Positions 50,857-55,939 of a stretch of 64,000 nucleotides of DNA are shown here, piece by piece. Location of the stretch: positions 1 to 64,000 of IMG/VR virus record IMGVR_UViG_3300030116_004255; one strand, 5' to 3'. The notes under the pieces are model-generated. The model saw nothing but the letters and a program-made list of their open reading frames with translations. It had not been told where the DNA came from and made no database searches. The position numbers and the translations under genes were made by a program. Each line of letters starts with the position of its first letter. Position 1 is the stretch's first letter. The DNA is from a virus.

Positions 50857-51003
50857 ATGGATTATTTAATAGGATTTATATTTGGATATTTTGTTAAAGA
50901 AACTTTTGCATTTCTGAAAAGATTAAGCGAATGGGACTGGCAAAATCGTTTGGTTTATGACCAAGATATATTTATGCCTCTTACTGAGGATGATTTACCC
51001 TAA
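50857..51003 (+). CDS. Small membrane protein under SOS control
   Basis: 48 aa: MDYLIGFIFGYFVKETFAFL is one membrane helix; the rest (KRLSEWDWQNRLVYDQDIFM) is soluble and ends acidic. The ATG at 50857 is chosen for its fit to the promoter. SOS-induced one-helix proteins such as YneA or SidA stop division; that is an analogy only. It is convergent with the C5 methyltransferase (9-nt overlap). Confidence 0.66.
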   Translation: MDYLIGFIFGYFVKETFAFLKRLSEWDWQNRLVYDQDIFMPLTEDDLP

Positions 51004-52446
51004 AACCTCTTGATCAAACACAAGTGTGTCTTGTATCAAAGATCTAATAACTAATCGACCTGTTAATTCTGCAAAATGTGGTACAACTGCATTTCCGAGA
51101 GCTTTAAGTCTATCAATATCGTTTTCTTGTCTTTCTGCAACTCTTAGTATGTTATTTTCCCATTGACTATCTACACCCCAAGAATTTGTCATTCCAAGTT
51201 CAGCCAACCATCTGGGTAGCCCATAAGTCTGTTCACCCAAGCTGGGTTCAGTCGCATACCAATCAATTCTGGATTCCGTTCCCCAACATCCATCTCCAGC
51301 GTAGAGCCGTGTGATCCACTCGCCACTGAGGGAGCTTTCTTGTTTACTGGCTTGCTGGCCTGACTGGCTCTGGGTGTCGAAAATGTCTCCTTTTCCACCC
51401 ACTCTATCACTTCTATTGTCGTCAGTTCTTTCTCGAACTTTATTTCGTTCAAGTGTGGTTTGATCTTGCTCCAGTCCTCCAGACTCGGATAACTGAATCC
51501 GCTCTGATCGTAGCGATACCAATGATCCACTGTCGTTTTCTTTATCTTGGTCAGCTTTGCTAACTTGGTCGCCCCTATCTGACTTCTTATGTAGTCCACC
51601 CAGTCCTTCTGTGGTGGTAGAAGTGGTCGATTGATCATCTCGTGATCCTGATAATAAACCATTAGGCTCGGATCTTTCTCTATCATATCCATCCAAACTT
51701 GATCGCTCAATGTTCTCTGTATCCTGTGGCCTGACGATCTCCTGGTTTTCCCCTGCATTAGTTTCGTCGCGTGTTTCAAGCTGTCGTCTTTCTGATCCAT
51801 TGTCGTTGGTGTTAACCAAATCTTTGGGTTCTCTCGTAAGTTCCCAGTACCTTTTCTTTTGCTCTTCCTCTCTGGATCTCCACGATACAACGCTCTCTCC
51901 AAAGCGTCCCCTGATCTCGGTTCTAAGTGATCCAAAGTGTTCGGTGTCTCCCACGATTCCAACTCCCACCCATCTTTGTCTTTTGTGTCTTGCTCCAACG
52001 AATTTTGCTGATACAAGTTGCCATTCAAATCGATAGTACCGCATTTTGGCCACACCTTTGAGGACACGGTTAATGGCTTCTCCGTCACTTGCTCTGAGGA
52101 TGTTTGGTACATTTTCCAAGAGGAAGATTGGTGGTCGTAGCTCATCAATAAATCTTTCGACTTCATCCCATAACCATCTTTCATCTTTTACTCCTTTCTG
52201 GTTTCCTGCAACACTTACAGGCTGACATGGAAATCCAGCACTTAATATATCTATTTTAGGTAGATATTTTGTATTTATCTCTTCTACGCTTTTATTTAAA
52301 ACTAAACTATTAGGAAAATTTTGTTGTAAAACCTTTGTACAAAATTCGTCATTGTCTATCTGCCAAGCTACATCTGAAACCAGGCCTGATCTAATAAGGC
52401 CTAACTCTATACCGCCGATACCAGCAAACATACTTCCTAACTTCAT
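50995..52446 (-). CDS. DNA cytosine-5 methyltransferase
   Basis: 483 aa. Motif I SMFAGIGGIELG (5-16), motif IV GFPCQPVSVAG (71-81, catalytic Cys74), motif VI FLLENVPNIL, motif VIII GARHKRQRWVGVGI, and motif X-like LKALGNAVVPHFAELTG near the C-terminus. The middle (~190-390) is hydrophilic with many Glu, Arg, Ser and no clear target-recognition domain. It is read in parallel with another gene over the same DNA. Part of the methyltransferase island. Confidence 0.9.
   Translation of the reverse strand: MKLGSMFAGIGGIELGLIRSGLVSDVAWQIDNDEFCTKVLQQNFPNSLVLNKSVEEINTKYLPKIDILSAGFPCQPVSVAGNQKGVKDERWLWDEVERFIDELRPPIFLLENVPNILRASDGEAINRVLKGVAKMRYYRFEWQLVSAKFVGARHKRQRWVGVGIVGDTEHFGSLRTEIRGRFGESVVSWRSREEEQKKRYWELTREPKDLVNTNDNGSERRQLETRDETNAGENQEIVRPQDTENIERSSLDGYDRERSEPNGLLSGSRDDQSTTSTTTEGLGGLHKKSDRGDQVSKADQDKENDSGSLVSLRSERIQLSESGGLEQDQTTLERNKVRERTDDNRSDRVGGKGDIFDTQSQSGQQASKQESSLSGEWITRLYAGDGCWGTESRIDWYATEPSLGEQTYGLPRWLAELGMTNSWGVDSQWENNILRVAERQENDIDRLKALGNAVVPHFAELTGRLVIRSLIQDTLVFDQEVLG
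51189..52184 (-). CDS. Nested second-frame gene inside the C5 methyltransferase
   Basis: 331 codons open in a different frame of the same strand, wholly inside 50995..52446. The protein does not look like chance: SSSWKMYQTSSEQ, KVWPKCGTIDLNGNLYQ, WLTPTTMDQ and LNPAWVNRLMGYPDGWLNLE are the hallmark blocks of phage proteins associated with or fused to C5 methyltransferases. It also has a helix-turn-helix-like part (GATKLAKLTKIKKTTVDHWY). The ATG at 52184 is nominal; translation signal not clear. Probably real overprinted gene. Confidence 0.7.
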   Translation of the reverse strand: MKDGYGMKSKDLLMSYDHQSSSWKMYQTSSEQVTEKPLTVSSKVWPKCGTIDLNGNLYQQNSLEQDTKDKDGWELESWETPNTLDHLEPRSGDALERALYRGDPERKSKRKGTGNLRENPKIWLTPTTMDQKDDSLKHATKLMQGKTRRSSGHRIQRTLSDQVWMDMIEKDPSLMVYYQDHEMINRPLLPPQKDWVDYIRSQIGATKLAKLTKIKKTTVDHWYRYDQSGFSYPSLEDWSKIKPHLNEIKFEKELTTIEVIEWVEKETFSTPRASQASKPVNKKAPSVASGSHGSTLEMDVGERNPELIGMRLNPAWVNRLMGYPDGWLNLE

Positions 52447-53189
52447 TTAATTCTTTCTTTTGCTATCCTGCAATATTTTTCCATTATTTCTATTCCTATA
52501 AAATTTCTATTAGTGTTTAGACAAGCAACACCAGTAGATCCTGATCCCATTGTAAAATCTAGCACTGTTTGATCTTCAAGCGTATAAGTTTCTATTAAAT
52601 ATTCTAATAAAGCAACTGGTTTTTGTGTTGGGTGATATGACTTCTGATTTTTCTTTTGGTTATCTCTTGGAAAGTAAAGCATGTTGTGTTTTGTTCTGTG
52701 TGTGTAGGTCACATACTTTCTACGGCCATTTTCTAAATTCTTTTTAGCAGTGGAAAAACTCTCGCCACCAGAAATTGTGCGGACTCTAGTTATAGGCTTT
52801 GCTAGTTTTTCCCCCTGCCAATCGTAATCAGGTTGTTCTTTATAAAATATAGATATGTTTTCGTTTTTTCTCATAGGTTGTTTTTTACTAAAGGCCTGAC
52901 CAGTTCCTTTATCTTTTTCCCAGATCCAGTCATATCTATATTCCTCTATGTTAGATAATCTTAAAAAACTACTAAAAGGTTCTAGGCCGAATAAAGCTAT
53001 TGCTGTTCTGTCTTTTCTAATTCTTTTTATCTGACTCCACATTTCCTCTACTGGTACTTGTTTGTCCCAGTCGTATTGAGTAGTTCCGTAAGGAAGATCA
53101 GTTAGTATAAAATCAATAGAGTTGTCGTCAATTAATTTCATAATCTCTAAACAGTTTCCGTTATACAGCTTCAATTCTTTCCTTTGCAA
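52443..53189 (-). CDS. DNA N6-adenine/N4-cytosine methyltransferase (DLPY)
   Basis: 248 aa. TDLPYGTTQYDWDK gives the motif IV as DLPY, AIALFGLEPFSSFLRLS follows and the SAM-binding motif I is near the C-terminus (VLDFTMGSGSTGVACLNTNR, FIGIE). This late-motif-I order is the beta class (N6 or N4). HPTQKPVALLEYLI precedes motif I. Overlaps the C5 gene by 4 nt and the next gene by 29 nt. Confidence 0.88.
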   Translation of the reverse strand: MQRKELKLYNGNCLEIMKLIDDNSIDFILTDLPYGTTQYDWDKQVPVEEMWSQIKRIRKDRTAIALFGLEPFSSFLRLSNIEEYRYDWIWEKDKGTGQAFSKKQPMRKNENISIFYKEQPDYDWQGEKLAKPITRVRTISGGESFSTAKKNLENGRRKYVTYTHRTKHNMLYFPRDNQKKNQKSYHPTQKPVALLEYLIETYTLEDQTVLDFTMGSGSTGVACLNTNRNFIGIEIMEKYCRIAKERIK

Positions 53190-53823
53190 TGTTGTAATAA
53201 TCCTCTACCAGCTCTATTCCTATAAATGCTCTATTTAGTTTTTTACAAACAACTCCAGTAGTCCCTACACCTAAGAAAGGATCAAGTATTAACTGATTTT
53301 CACTTGTAAAGTTTTCTATAAAGTAATGTGCAAGTTGTTCAGGCATAACAGCATTAAAGTCGCCATAGCTTTTTGTTCCTTTTGGTATATCAACAAAGTT
53401 TGTTATGAAATGTGTGTTTGCTTTTACTTTTTTCTTAGAGAAACATAAAATATATTCGACTGAGTTAGTCACATAGTATTGTGCTGAACTAGGTGTAGCA
53501 TTTTTCTTATACCAAATAAAATTTTGTTCTAATAGATCTGCATAATGGCCTATTAATTTAAATACTTGTTTTTTGTTTCTAGCATTTGCTTGTATGTTCC
53601 AGAAAACATAGTGGTCTGTAATTCTTAATAGCTCGTCTATGATTTGTGTACACCAATCAAAATAGTCAGGCCTTTTGTCTTTAAATTGATCGTATTTAGA
53701 TTTTGCTTTAGAGTCTAATTCTTTGTTAAGGCCTATATTGTAAGGTGGACTTGTAAATGTATGATCTACTGTGTTTTCACCGAGTTCTTTTATAATTTCT
53801 AAACAGTCACCGTTATATATCAT
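53161..53823 (-). CDS. DNA N4/N6 methyltransferase (TSPPYN)
   Basis: 220 aa from MIYNGDCLEII (ATG 53823, AGG upstream). Motif IV is TSPPYNIGLN, motif I is LILDPFLGVGTTGVVCKKLN with FIGIEL. TSPPY is the usual signature of N4-cytosine and some N6-adenine beta enzymes. Adjacent to MetK with an 11-nt overlap. Confidence 0.88.
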   Translation of the reverse strand: MIYNGDCLEIIKELGENTVDHTFTSPPYNIGLNKELDSKAKSKYDQFKDKRPDYFDWCTQIIDELLRITDHYVFWNIQANARNKKQVFKLIGHYADLLEQNFIWYKKNATPSSAQYYVTNSVEYILCFSKKKVKANTHFITNFVDIPKGTKSYGDFNAVMPEQLAHYFIENFTSENQLILDPFLGVGTTGVVCKKLNRAFIGIELVEDYYNIAKERIEAV

Positions 53824-54880
53824 CAACCTGTTCCCAAGTTCTGGTGCGATCACCAAAATGAGAAAATTGACTATCTTTGTAATATTGCACCTGTTTTAAA
53901 TTCAATCTTTCTATTATTGCTTCAGGCCTAAAGTCAAAGCATTGAATAAATTTCTCTATACTTGCACGCCTCTTTTTTTCTGTTCCATTAAAAGCTACAC
54001 TTAGTTCTATTGGGTGTTCCATACCTATTCCATAGGACAACCTAACTAAGGCATCTTCGCACATACCATGTTCTACTAAATTGACAGCTAAGTGTCTAGC
54101 AGCATAAGCGCCAGATCTGTCAACTTTACTTGGATCTTTACCAGAGAAAGCACCACCGCCAACAGGTATTGTAGGTCCGTAGCTATCTACTACTATTTTC
54201 CTACCAGTCACTCCTGTGTCTGCTGCTGGTCCACCTTTTGTAAAAGATCCAGATGGATTTACATGAAGTGTAAAATCTGGACCTATTATATTTTCAACTA
54301 AGCTAACTAACTTACCTTCGTATTCATTTTTTTCTAATTCTGTTTGTACTGAGATAACTACTGTATATCCGCCATTTTCAGTCACTTGTACTTTTGAGTC
54401 CAAGCCATAAAAATAATCATACTTTTGTAGCTCCCATAGATCCATTTGTATTTCTCTAGCTAAATCAAATTCGTGAGGTAAAAGCGTTGATGTTTTATTT
54501 GTTGCAAATCCAATCATAATACCCTGATCTCCTGCACCCTTTTTAGCTACAACTGCATCTCTAATTTCTATACTTTGTGGTGATATATTTTCACTAAGAG
54601 TATATTTATTTAGATCAAATTCTTTATGACTGTTTCTTATGTTTTTTTCTAAAACATCTTTGACTAGATAAGGTATTGTTTGTTTTATTTCGTGATAGGT
54701 AGTTTCTGTCATTTCGCCACCCAACACAACTAATCCTCCACTTTCATTACCAGTAATTAATGTTTCTATTGCTACTTTACAATCTGGATTTTCTACTAAA
54801 GCTCTGTCTAATATTCTGTCAGAAATTTGATCTGCTATTTTATCTGGGTGTCCAGGGGACACAAATTCTGCTGTTTTCAT
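53813..54880 (-). CDS. metK: S-adenosylmethionine synthetase
   Basis: 355 aa, slightly shorter than cellular MetK (~380-400). All signature parts are there: FVSPGHPDKIADQISDRILD at the N-terminus (ATP/metal), GAGDQGIMIGFAT, and GGGAFSGKDPSKVDRSGAYA (methionine/triphosphate site), IGMEHPIELSV. It converts ATP and methionine to SAM, pyrophosphate and phosphate. It lies in the middle of five methyltransferase genes, so it likely supplies SAM for their reactions. Confidence 0.93.
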   Translation of the reverse strand: MKTAEFVSPGHPDKIADQISDRILDRALVENPDCKVAIETLITGNESGGLVVLGGEMTETTYHEIKQTIPYLVKDVLEKNIRNSHKEFDLNKYTLSENISPQSIEIRDAVVAKKGAGDQGIMIGFATNKTSTLLPHEFDLAREIQMDLWELQKYDYFYGLDSKVQVTENGGYTVVISVQTELEKNEYEGKLVSLVENIIGPDFTLHVNPSGSFTKGGPAADTGVTGRKIVVDSYGPTIPVGGGAFSGKDPSKVDRSGAYAARHLAVNLVEHGMCEDALVRLSYGIGMEHPIELSVAFNGTEKKRRASIEKFIQCFDFRPEAIIERLNLKQVQYYKDSQFSHFGDRTRTWEQVDDI

Positions 54881-55413
54881 TTACTCAACCTTTCCATAAT
54901 GATTTGTTTTGGTAAAAAGTTCCAACAGTAGTAGGAACTAGAAAAAGTAGGGCTACCCATACTCTTACCATCTTTAAAATATTGTATACGCTTATCAAAC
55001 ATAAGTAGTTCTAAATCACGATTTTCAAATAAATACTTAGGTGCGGAGTCATTTAGCCAAGTATTAGACATAAGCAGTGCAAAAGGTTTATTAAAAAATA
55101 AAGCTCTTTCAAATATTTGTCTTTTGTTGGTAAATGGTGGATTACTAACAATAATGTCCCAATGTTCGTCAGGTTCATAGGTATAAAAGTCTTGTCCGTC
55201 AAAAATGTGTGAATTTATAACTTTATTGCGTTCCTGGATCTTTTTTACAAAAAAACTGTGTTCTTGATCAAAAGGACACCAAACTACTGCATTTTCAGGA
55301 ATATATTTTAAAATTGGCTGAACTGCGTATTCTGGGGTATAACACTCGTCATTTTTACCTTTTGAGTATAAAACTTTATTACTTTCTAACCCCCAGCGAT
55401 CAGTTGACTTCAT
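54877..55413 (-). CDS. Adenine-methyltransferase-like protein (SNPPF)
   Basis: 178 aa. IVSNPPFTNKRQIFERALFF is the catalytic (N/S)PP(Y/F) motif; VVWCPFDQEHSFFVKKIQER and NSHIFDGQDFYTYEPDEHWD match a widespread phage family. SAM motif I is not evident at the N-terminus, so it may be a divergent methyltransferase. Overlaps MetK start by 4 nt. Confidence 0.75.
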   Translation of the reverse strand: MKSTDRWGLESNKVLYSKGKNDECYTPEYAVQPILKYIPENAVVWCPFDQEHSFFVKKIQERNKVINSHIFDGQDFYTYEPDEHWDIIVSNPPFTNKRQIFERALFFNKPFALLMSNTWLNDSAPKYLFENRDLELLMFDKRIQYFKDGKSMGSPTFSSSYYCWNFLPKQIIMERLSK

Positions 55414-55939
55414 TTCCCCAGCTATCCCATCCTTCGGCTGTTTCTCTTGCGAATAATTCTATTCTAGGAAGATCTCCACAAAGTTCAATGATATCGTTCC
55501 TAATTCTGTCAGGTTTCTTGCTGTGTCTTGATCGTGGTTCAATTACTAATTCTTTTACAGCTTTAGAAACTCTGCTTGGTTTTCCTTTTGTAGCTAATAA
55601 ACATAATTCTGGATTACCTCTTGTCCAATAACCTAAACCAGTAAAAAATCCCTCTGACTTAATATTTTTCTTTATCCAGTTAAAAGCTACTGTTTTATAA
55701 GTAAATCCCCAACTATCGATTACTTCAAAGGCCTGTGGTAATGAGTGATTAACTACCCAAAGAAATAAAACACAATTAGTATCTGCAATATCGTTTACTG
55801 GTAATGACTTTATCCAGTTAAGATCTTGTGTTTCGTAATGTTGATTAGGATTTCGTCCCTCGCCTTTTTTACTAAAGTTTTTAAAACTCCACGGTGGATC
55901 TGCATAAATTATGTTGTATTTATTATTTGGGAACTCCAT
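55400..55939 (-). CDS. MT-A70 family N6-adenine methyltransferase
   Basis: 179 aa. DPPW catalytic motif in YNIIYADPPWSFKNFSKKGE, then NQHYETQDLNWIKSL, LFLWVVNHSLPQAFEVIDSW, FNWIKKN, GYWTRGNPELCLLATKG and EPRSRHSKKPDRIRNDIIEL, the full MT-A70 order. These enzymes methylate adenine in DNA (or RNA). First gene of the methyltransferase operon, leaderless start. Confidence 0.92.
   Translation of the reverse strand: MEFPNNKYNIIYADPPWSFKNFSKKGEGRNPNQHYETQDLNWIKSLPVNDIADTNCVLFLWVVNHSLPQAFEVIDSWGFTYKTVAFNWIKKNIKSEGFFTGLGYWTRGNPELCLLATKGKPSRVSKAVKELVIEPRSRHSKKPDRIRNDIIELCGDLPRIELFARETAEGWDSWGNEVN

Follow-up and report, generated by a model that had tools for sequence, protein, structure and literature searches.

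A C5 cytosine methyltransferase gene in a viral genome sequence was found to contain a second coding frame, nested within it on the same strand in phase +1; both frames are kept open, the inner one is under purifying selection, and the arrangement recurs in relatives. The 64,000-nucleotide stretch analysed, referred to as the window, is part of an 82-kb IMG/VR virus record. The outer and inner products, here designated alpha and beta, very probably make up one C5 methyltransferase split in the fashion of M.EcoHK31I, the nested beta supplying specificity and motif IX in trans. The features that define the locus are the following.

52446..50995, minus strand: alpha, catalytic subunit of a C5 cytosine methyltransferase, 483 aa, ATG start, PF00145 match (E 7e-46)
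52184..51189, minus strand: beta, inside alpha in phase +1, 331 aa, ATG start, phrog_1008 match (E 4.5e-9)
52191..52197, minus strand: Shine-Dalgarno-type site AAAGGAG, 6 nt 5' of the beta ATG, retained in relatives

Dual coding and selection at the locus

An earlier note on this DNA had described two long same-strand frames open over 51189..52184, and both ORFs were confirmed, on the minus strand. In the window 32 stops interrupt the remaining frame of that strand, and 25–39 do so across the window and its closest relatives. Synonymous recoding of alpha (2 x 20,000 recodings) gave a longest +1 open run of 202 codons, against 332 observed, while synonymous recoding of beta led to an expectation of 15–34 alpha-frame stops on average over the overlap, where none is observed.

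Scanned with beta, viral sequences yielded 46 loci. Every viral relative spanning the gene (more than 40 loci) has beta open and in an unchanged phase, with an ATG at the matching place preceded by an AAGGAG-like site. Inner-frame stops in relatives, which the earlier note had named beforehand as grounds for abandoning its proposal, did not occur, and the homologues of the inner protein that it had called for are widespread in viral and bacterial-genome scans. At the Shine-Dalgarno site, 32 of the 34 distinct alleles use GGA as the glycine codon of alpha, compared with a GGA share of 35% elsewhere in the alpha N-terminus, and two alleles use GGT instead.

Constraint was computed in both frames, as the earlier note had suggested, and purifying selection was found to act on the inner one. 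Among relatives, identity is higher for the inner than for the outer protein (for example 85 vs 66% and 78 vs 64%), and substitutions are concentrated at the third inner codon position (rates of 0.162, 0.112 and 0.377 at positions 1 to 3). The inner dN/dS-type ratio, dNN/dNS, was 0.06–0.14, which denotes strong purifying selection on beta; this ratio and the outer dNN/dSN are pairwise estimates over related sequences, with intervals obtained by column bootstrap. Constraint is seen in both frames over alpha motifs V–VIII (inner 0.06, outer 0.04). Across the beta cassettes described below, the inner frame is constrained (dNN/dNS 0.14 [0.11–0.18]), and alpha, with dNN/dSN of 1.79 [1.32–2.57], is without amino-acid constraint, its frame nevertheless remaining open. 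Inner positions 1 and 2 are likewise better conserved than position 3 across 58 diverse loci, and in the block assigned below to motif IX the wobble base of alpha is conserved more than its first base. A chance ORF is ruled out by the recodings, the selection ratios, the 58-locus positions and the comparison of stop counts between nested and non-nested cassettes given below.

Probable division of the C5 motifs between alpha and beta

Motifs I, IV, VI, VIII and X had been read in the outer protein from the start; all are present, along with the PF00145 match, and of the features expected of that family (I, IV with PCQ, VI with ENV, VIII, IX and X) only IX is missing from the same polypeptide.

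52411..52428, minus strand: motif I, FAGIGG, recognised in the sequence, columns mostly invariant in alignment A2
52213..52236, minus strand: motif IV, GFPCQPVS with the catalytic Cys, invariant in A2
52108..52116, minus strand: motif VI, ENV, invariant in A2
51967..51990, minus strand: motif VIII, RHKRQRWV, with H, R and R invariant in A2
51208..51945, minus strand: hydrophilic linker overlapping the beta cassettes, low pLDDT, dNN/dSN as above, stop-free
51079..51108, minus strand: motif X, LKALGNAVVP, 3' of the beta stop, recognised in the sequence

The AlphaFold model of alpha contains a recognisable catalytic domain, with a Foldseek match to M.HhaI (E 1e-12). The linker, at about residues 168–413 and hydrophilic as remarked in the earlier note, is predicted to be disordered (pLDDT mostly 25–45). 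A canonical motif IX following VIII in the alpha frame was found in 0 of 80 loci, the window alpha being judged by inspection of its sequence.

Beta consists of an N-terminal region, repeated segments that open with W-x-TP, and a nearly fixed C-terminal block, whose form in the window is RLNPAWVNRLMGYPDGW.

51954..52184, minus strand: N-terminal region (SSWKM, KVWPKCGTIDLNG), over alpha motifs V–VIII, both frames constrained
51819..51953, minus strand: cassette 1 (WETPNTLDH...), with a W-x-TP-type motif
51384..51818, minus strand: cassette 2 (WLTPTTMDQ...), including an HTH-like segment, with a homologue in sister phages, where it lies in the alpha frame
51450..51614, minus strand: HTH-like segment of cassette 2, pLDDT 57–82
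51258..51383, minus strand: cassette 3 (FSTPRASQ...), recognised in the sequence and present in relatives
51192..51257, minus strand: motif-IX-like block MRLNPAWVNRLMGYPDGWLNLE, assigned from its position and its effect on the PF00145 score

In sequence this C-terminal block is similar to canonical motif IX (RRLTPRECARLMGF in Dcm-like enzymes), and it stands at the place where IX is expected. When the beta tail was grafted between motifs VIII and X of alpha, the PF00145 score rose by 7–9 bits over that of shuffled tails (two families, three shuffles each), and canonical C5 controls showed no such block in +1. Three profiles were searched against the PDB, namely those of beta (alignment A1), of a wider set of betas (A4) and of the block itself (A5), and each gave chance matches only. 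On the basis of position, resemblance and the 7–9 bits, beta appears to carry the catalytic motif IX, and the enzyme therefore probably depends on beta as one of its two halves rather than having it as an add-on. Indeed, as IX is absent from the alpha frames and an IX-like block is present in beta, the two together would form one full C5 enzyme.

The same division was seen when viral sequences were scanned with the alpha N-domain alone. Among the 80 loci so found, the alpha frame includes motif X in 73, and the +1 frame includes an IX-like block in 67; such a block occurred in neither of the other two frames (0 and +2) at any locus. The figure of 67/80 is not a rate for all C5 enzymes, since most of the families behind the query alignment have the nested layout. 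At locus L005 (Gordonia phage Neville) an IX-like block (LEEWMMGFPPGW) and motif X are both in the alpha frame and a cassette-bearing +1 ORF persists, and this may be a one-piece or a transitional form.

Cassettes and occurrence of the nested layout

The cassette motif occurs 1–7 times per beta with a median spacing of 44 aa, and its count tracks beta length (117 distinct betas); the order of cassettes differs between L043 and the window. With units of about 44 aa that vary in number and order, the beta cassettes resemble target recognition (TRD) arrays. None of the cassettes could be paired with a TRD whose specificity is known, a phmmer comparison of beta with canonical C5 monomers gave nothing significant, and the sole confident family match of beta is phrog_1008, listed as 'DNA methyltransferase'. 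A hit of beta to PF12114 (Period_C; E 5e-4) in the Pfam and NCBIfam searches was below the cut-off and was set aside as a low-complexity chance match.

The AlphaFold model of beta has a mean pLDDT of 39, only the HTH segment (about residues 191–245) reaching 57–82, so that the description of the inner protein as 'well ordered' is unsupported where structure is concerned; Foldseek of the model gave nothing significant. Low confidence for beta alone fits, and does not prove, folding only with a partner. A Staphylococcus phage DNA methyltransferase belonging to a different class (L003:1922-3064) has an insert with 41% identity to the HTH-like segment of beta, which suggests exchange between enzyme classes.

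In sister phages (L025-L036, L043-L046) the HTH cassette is found in the alpha frame, 3' of the beta stop. These alpha-borne HTH cassettes and the beta-borne ones of the window's clade are 46–57% identical (E 1e-47 to 1e-65), and shuffled betas gave no matches to the alpha-frame cassettes. Where the HTH cassette is nested, the overlapping frame has 0 stops in 15 of 15 alleles; where it is alpha-located, that same alternative frame has 11–22 stops in 13 of 13 alleles. No other observation speaks as strongly for the maintenance of both frames as coding sequence. Third-position G+C differs as well, being 0.32–0.58 in nested and 0.12–0.23 in alpha-located cassettes. In the alpha N-domain tree the nested form makes up one well-supported clade of 12 that includes the window, plus the distant L158, and the alpha-located form is scattered over the remainder; the direction of cassette movement is inferred, as the tree is midpoint-rooted. 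Two near-identical pairs, L043/L047 and L036/L039, differ in the presence of an alpha-located cassette. The distant beta (L158:2507-3703), of 399 aa, has a like HTH cassette nested, and there too the alpha frame is stop-free.

With the wider beta set (A4), 319 relatives were detected in bacterial genomes, and the narrower alignment (A1) gave none. Among the best 80 of the 319, beta lies in +1 over a C5 N-domain in 76. These come from Bacillota, Actinomycetota, Pseudomonadota, Bacteroidota, Spirochaetota, Planctomycetota and others. The nested layout was also seen on an archaeal plasmid, on a Leptospira plasmid and in E. coli prophages. One E. coli prophage allele (L289:2374-3135), annotated as a pseudogene, has both frames broken near one place, and a related E. 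coli prophage pair (L290) is intact. The annotation of phage Lily names the inner ORF 'g62 internal gene'; other phages annotate one of the two only.

It is rather probable that nested pairs are widespread among phage and prophage enzymes and mostly half-annotated, that cassettes swap frames with clearance of the stops in the opposite frame, and that the pairs arose by mutual overprinting, of the beta N-terminus over alpha motifs and of the alpha linker over beta cassettes. Overprinting of one frame had been proposed at the outset; a single direction is probably too simple, the newcomer probably being beta over motifs V–VIII and alpha over the cassettes.

A probable two-subunit enzyme, its alternatives and known counterparts

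The suggestion that the inner protein is a specificity subunit remains the best reading, with the apparent motif IX added to its role. Two proteins would be made from overlapping frames of one mRNA, beta starting internally from its own ribosome site. Alpha would supply the SAM-binding and catalytic domain (I–VIII) and the closing helix (X), and beta the small DNA-binding domain in trans, with its N-terminal region, target-recognition-like cassettes and motif IX. Alpha and beta would then assemble into a working heterodimer whose methylated sites are set by beta.

Four other explanations were weighed. Beta may be a real gene with another role, such as a regulator or an anti-defence protein acting through its HTH; the segment itself and its top Foldseek matches, to HipB/repressor-type and restriction-modification control proteins (E 0.6, not significant), point that way, but the HTH is absent from most betas and the best-conserved part of beta is the IX-like block missing in alpha, which makes this improbable. 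Slightly less probable again is programmed frameshifting that yields a single chain in which the beta cassettes follow the alpha N-domain, perhaps with a return to X. The motif order along the DNA is indeed that of a one-piece C5 gene (I–VIII, TRD, IX, X) with TRD to IX read in +1, yet the conserved Shine-Dalgarno site and ATG of beta precede the catalytic motifs that beta overlaps, and the beta N-terminus is under selection there.

There is very little likelihood that the inner frame is a by-product, with alpha the sole gene and its conserved codons leaving +1 open and motif-like. 'WPRSGM-x-NG' and 'LMGFPxGW' can be read as alternative-frame renderings of conserved alpha segments; against this, the inner frame is constrained and the outer unconstrained over the cassettes, the open run was unmatched in 40,000 recodings, the wobble base of alpha outdoes its first base in the motif-IX block, and canonical C5 genes lack the +1 block. 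Just as hard to credit is that beta is the gene and alpha is not translated as a continuous protein past motif VIII, as its dNN/dSN of 1.79 and predicted disorder might suggest, given a frame stop-free over 331 or more codons, the 11–22 stops of the cassette when not overlapped, and motif X coming next in the alpha frame.

The proposed two-subunit enzyme has partial counterparts among known systems. The small-subunit gene of M.EcoHK31I reportedly lies within the large one in another frame, in work attributed to Lee et al. in 1995, and if so it is nested much as the +1 ORF is here. The alpha chain of M.EcoHK31I (YGGCCR) has motifs I–VIII and X, with IX on a smaller second polypeptide (PMC3404938), a division that alpha and the IX-like block of beta share by description. 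The TRD of M.EcoHK31I is, however, predicted in the large subunit, whereas the TRD-like cassettes here, one of them HTH-bearing, are in beta; the sister phages L025-L036 have cassettes in the alpha frame, unlike the window alpha. M.EcoHK31I is also part of a restriction-modification system, and the present pair belongs to a phage. In M.AquI two polypeptides likewise complete one C5 enzyme (PMC3404938), but the split falls within the TRD and both IX and X are on the small chain, whereas X stays on alpha here. A member of the same family (L090:2652-3512), with IX and X both in the beta frame and a short alpha, has an M.AquI-like split and looks intermediate between M.AquI and the nested layout.

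Multispecific C5 methyltransferases of Bacillus temperate phages carry TRD arrays directed against many restriction systems (PMC12707154), and the repeated cassettes of about 44 aa lie in the same region; those enzymes are one polypeptide in one frame, whereas the array here is nested and is found in either frame. Paenibacillus phage Lily gp62/gp63 is similar: the annotated C5 methyltransferase there also contains an 'internal gene' read in a different frame. The Lily beta is shorter (163 aa) and about 48% identical to its Lilo relative, and the inner gene is annotated only 'DNA methyltransferase', with a subunit role unstated. The breadth of the nested layout, nested TRD-like cassettes and cassettes in either frame were not described in the literature searched, which is weak evidence as few subscription papers were covered.

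If the two-subunit reading is true, many phage and prophage cytosine methyltransferases annotated as single genes are two-protein enzymes, and the annotated protein, expressed alone, would look inactive as the annotation omits half of the enzyme. The pairs would also be an extensive natural resource for studying long dual coding on one strand, in which the cassette, nested or not, serves as internal control, and they would point to a testable way in which phages alter their methylation specificity.

The pair adjoins four further DNA methyltransferase genes and a SAM synthetase gene (52443-55939).

52443-53189, minus strand: PF01555 methyltransferase
53161-53856, minus strand: PF01555 methyltransferase
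53813-54880, minus strand: SAM synthetase with three Pfam domains (PHROGs phrog_1569, listed as of unknown function)
54877-55413, minus strand: phrog_799 methyltransferase
55400-55939, minus strand: MT-A70 protein, DNA methyltransferase

This methylation gene cluster supports, by inference, an anti-restriction role, in which the phage DNA would probably be shielded from host restriction by the pair jointly with the neighbouring methyltransferases and SAM synthetase. Elsewhere in the window, a thioredoxin gene (PF00085; 49350-49673, minus strand) adjoins the terminase genes.
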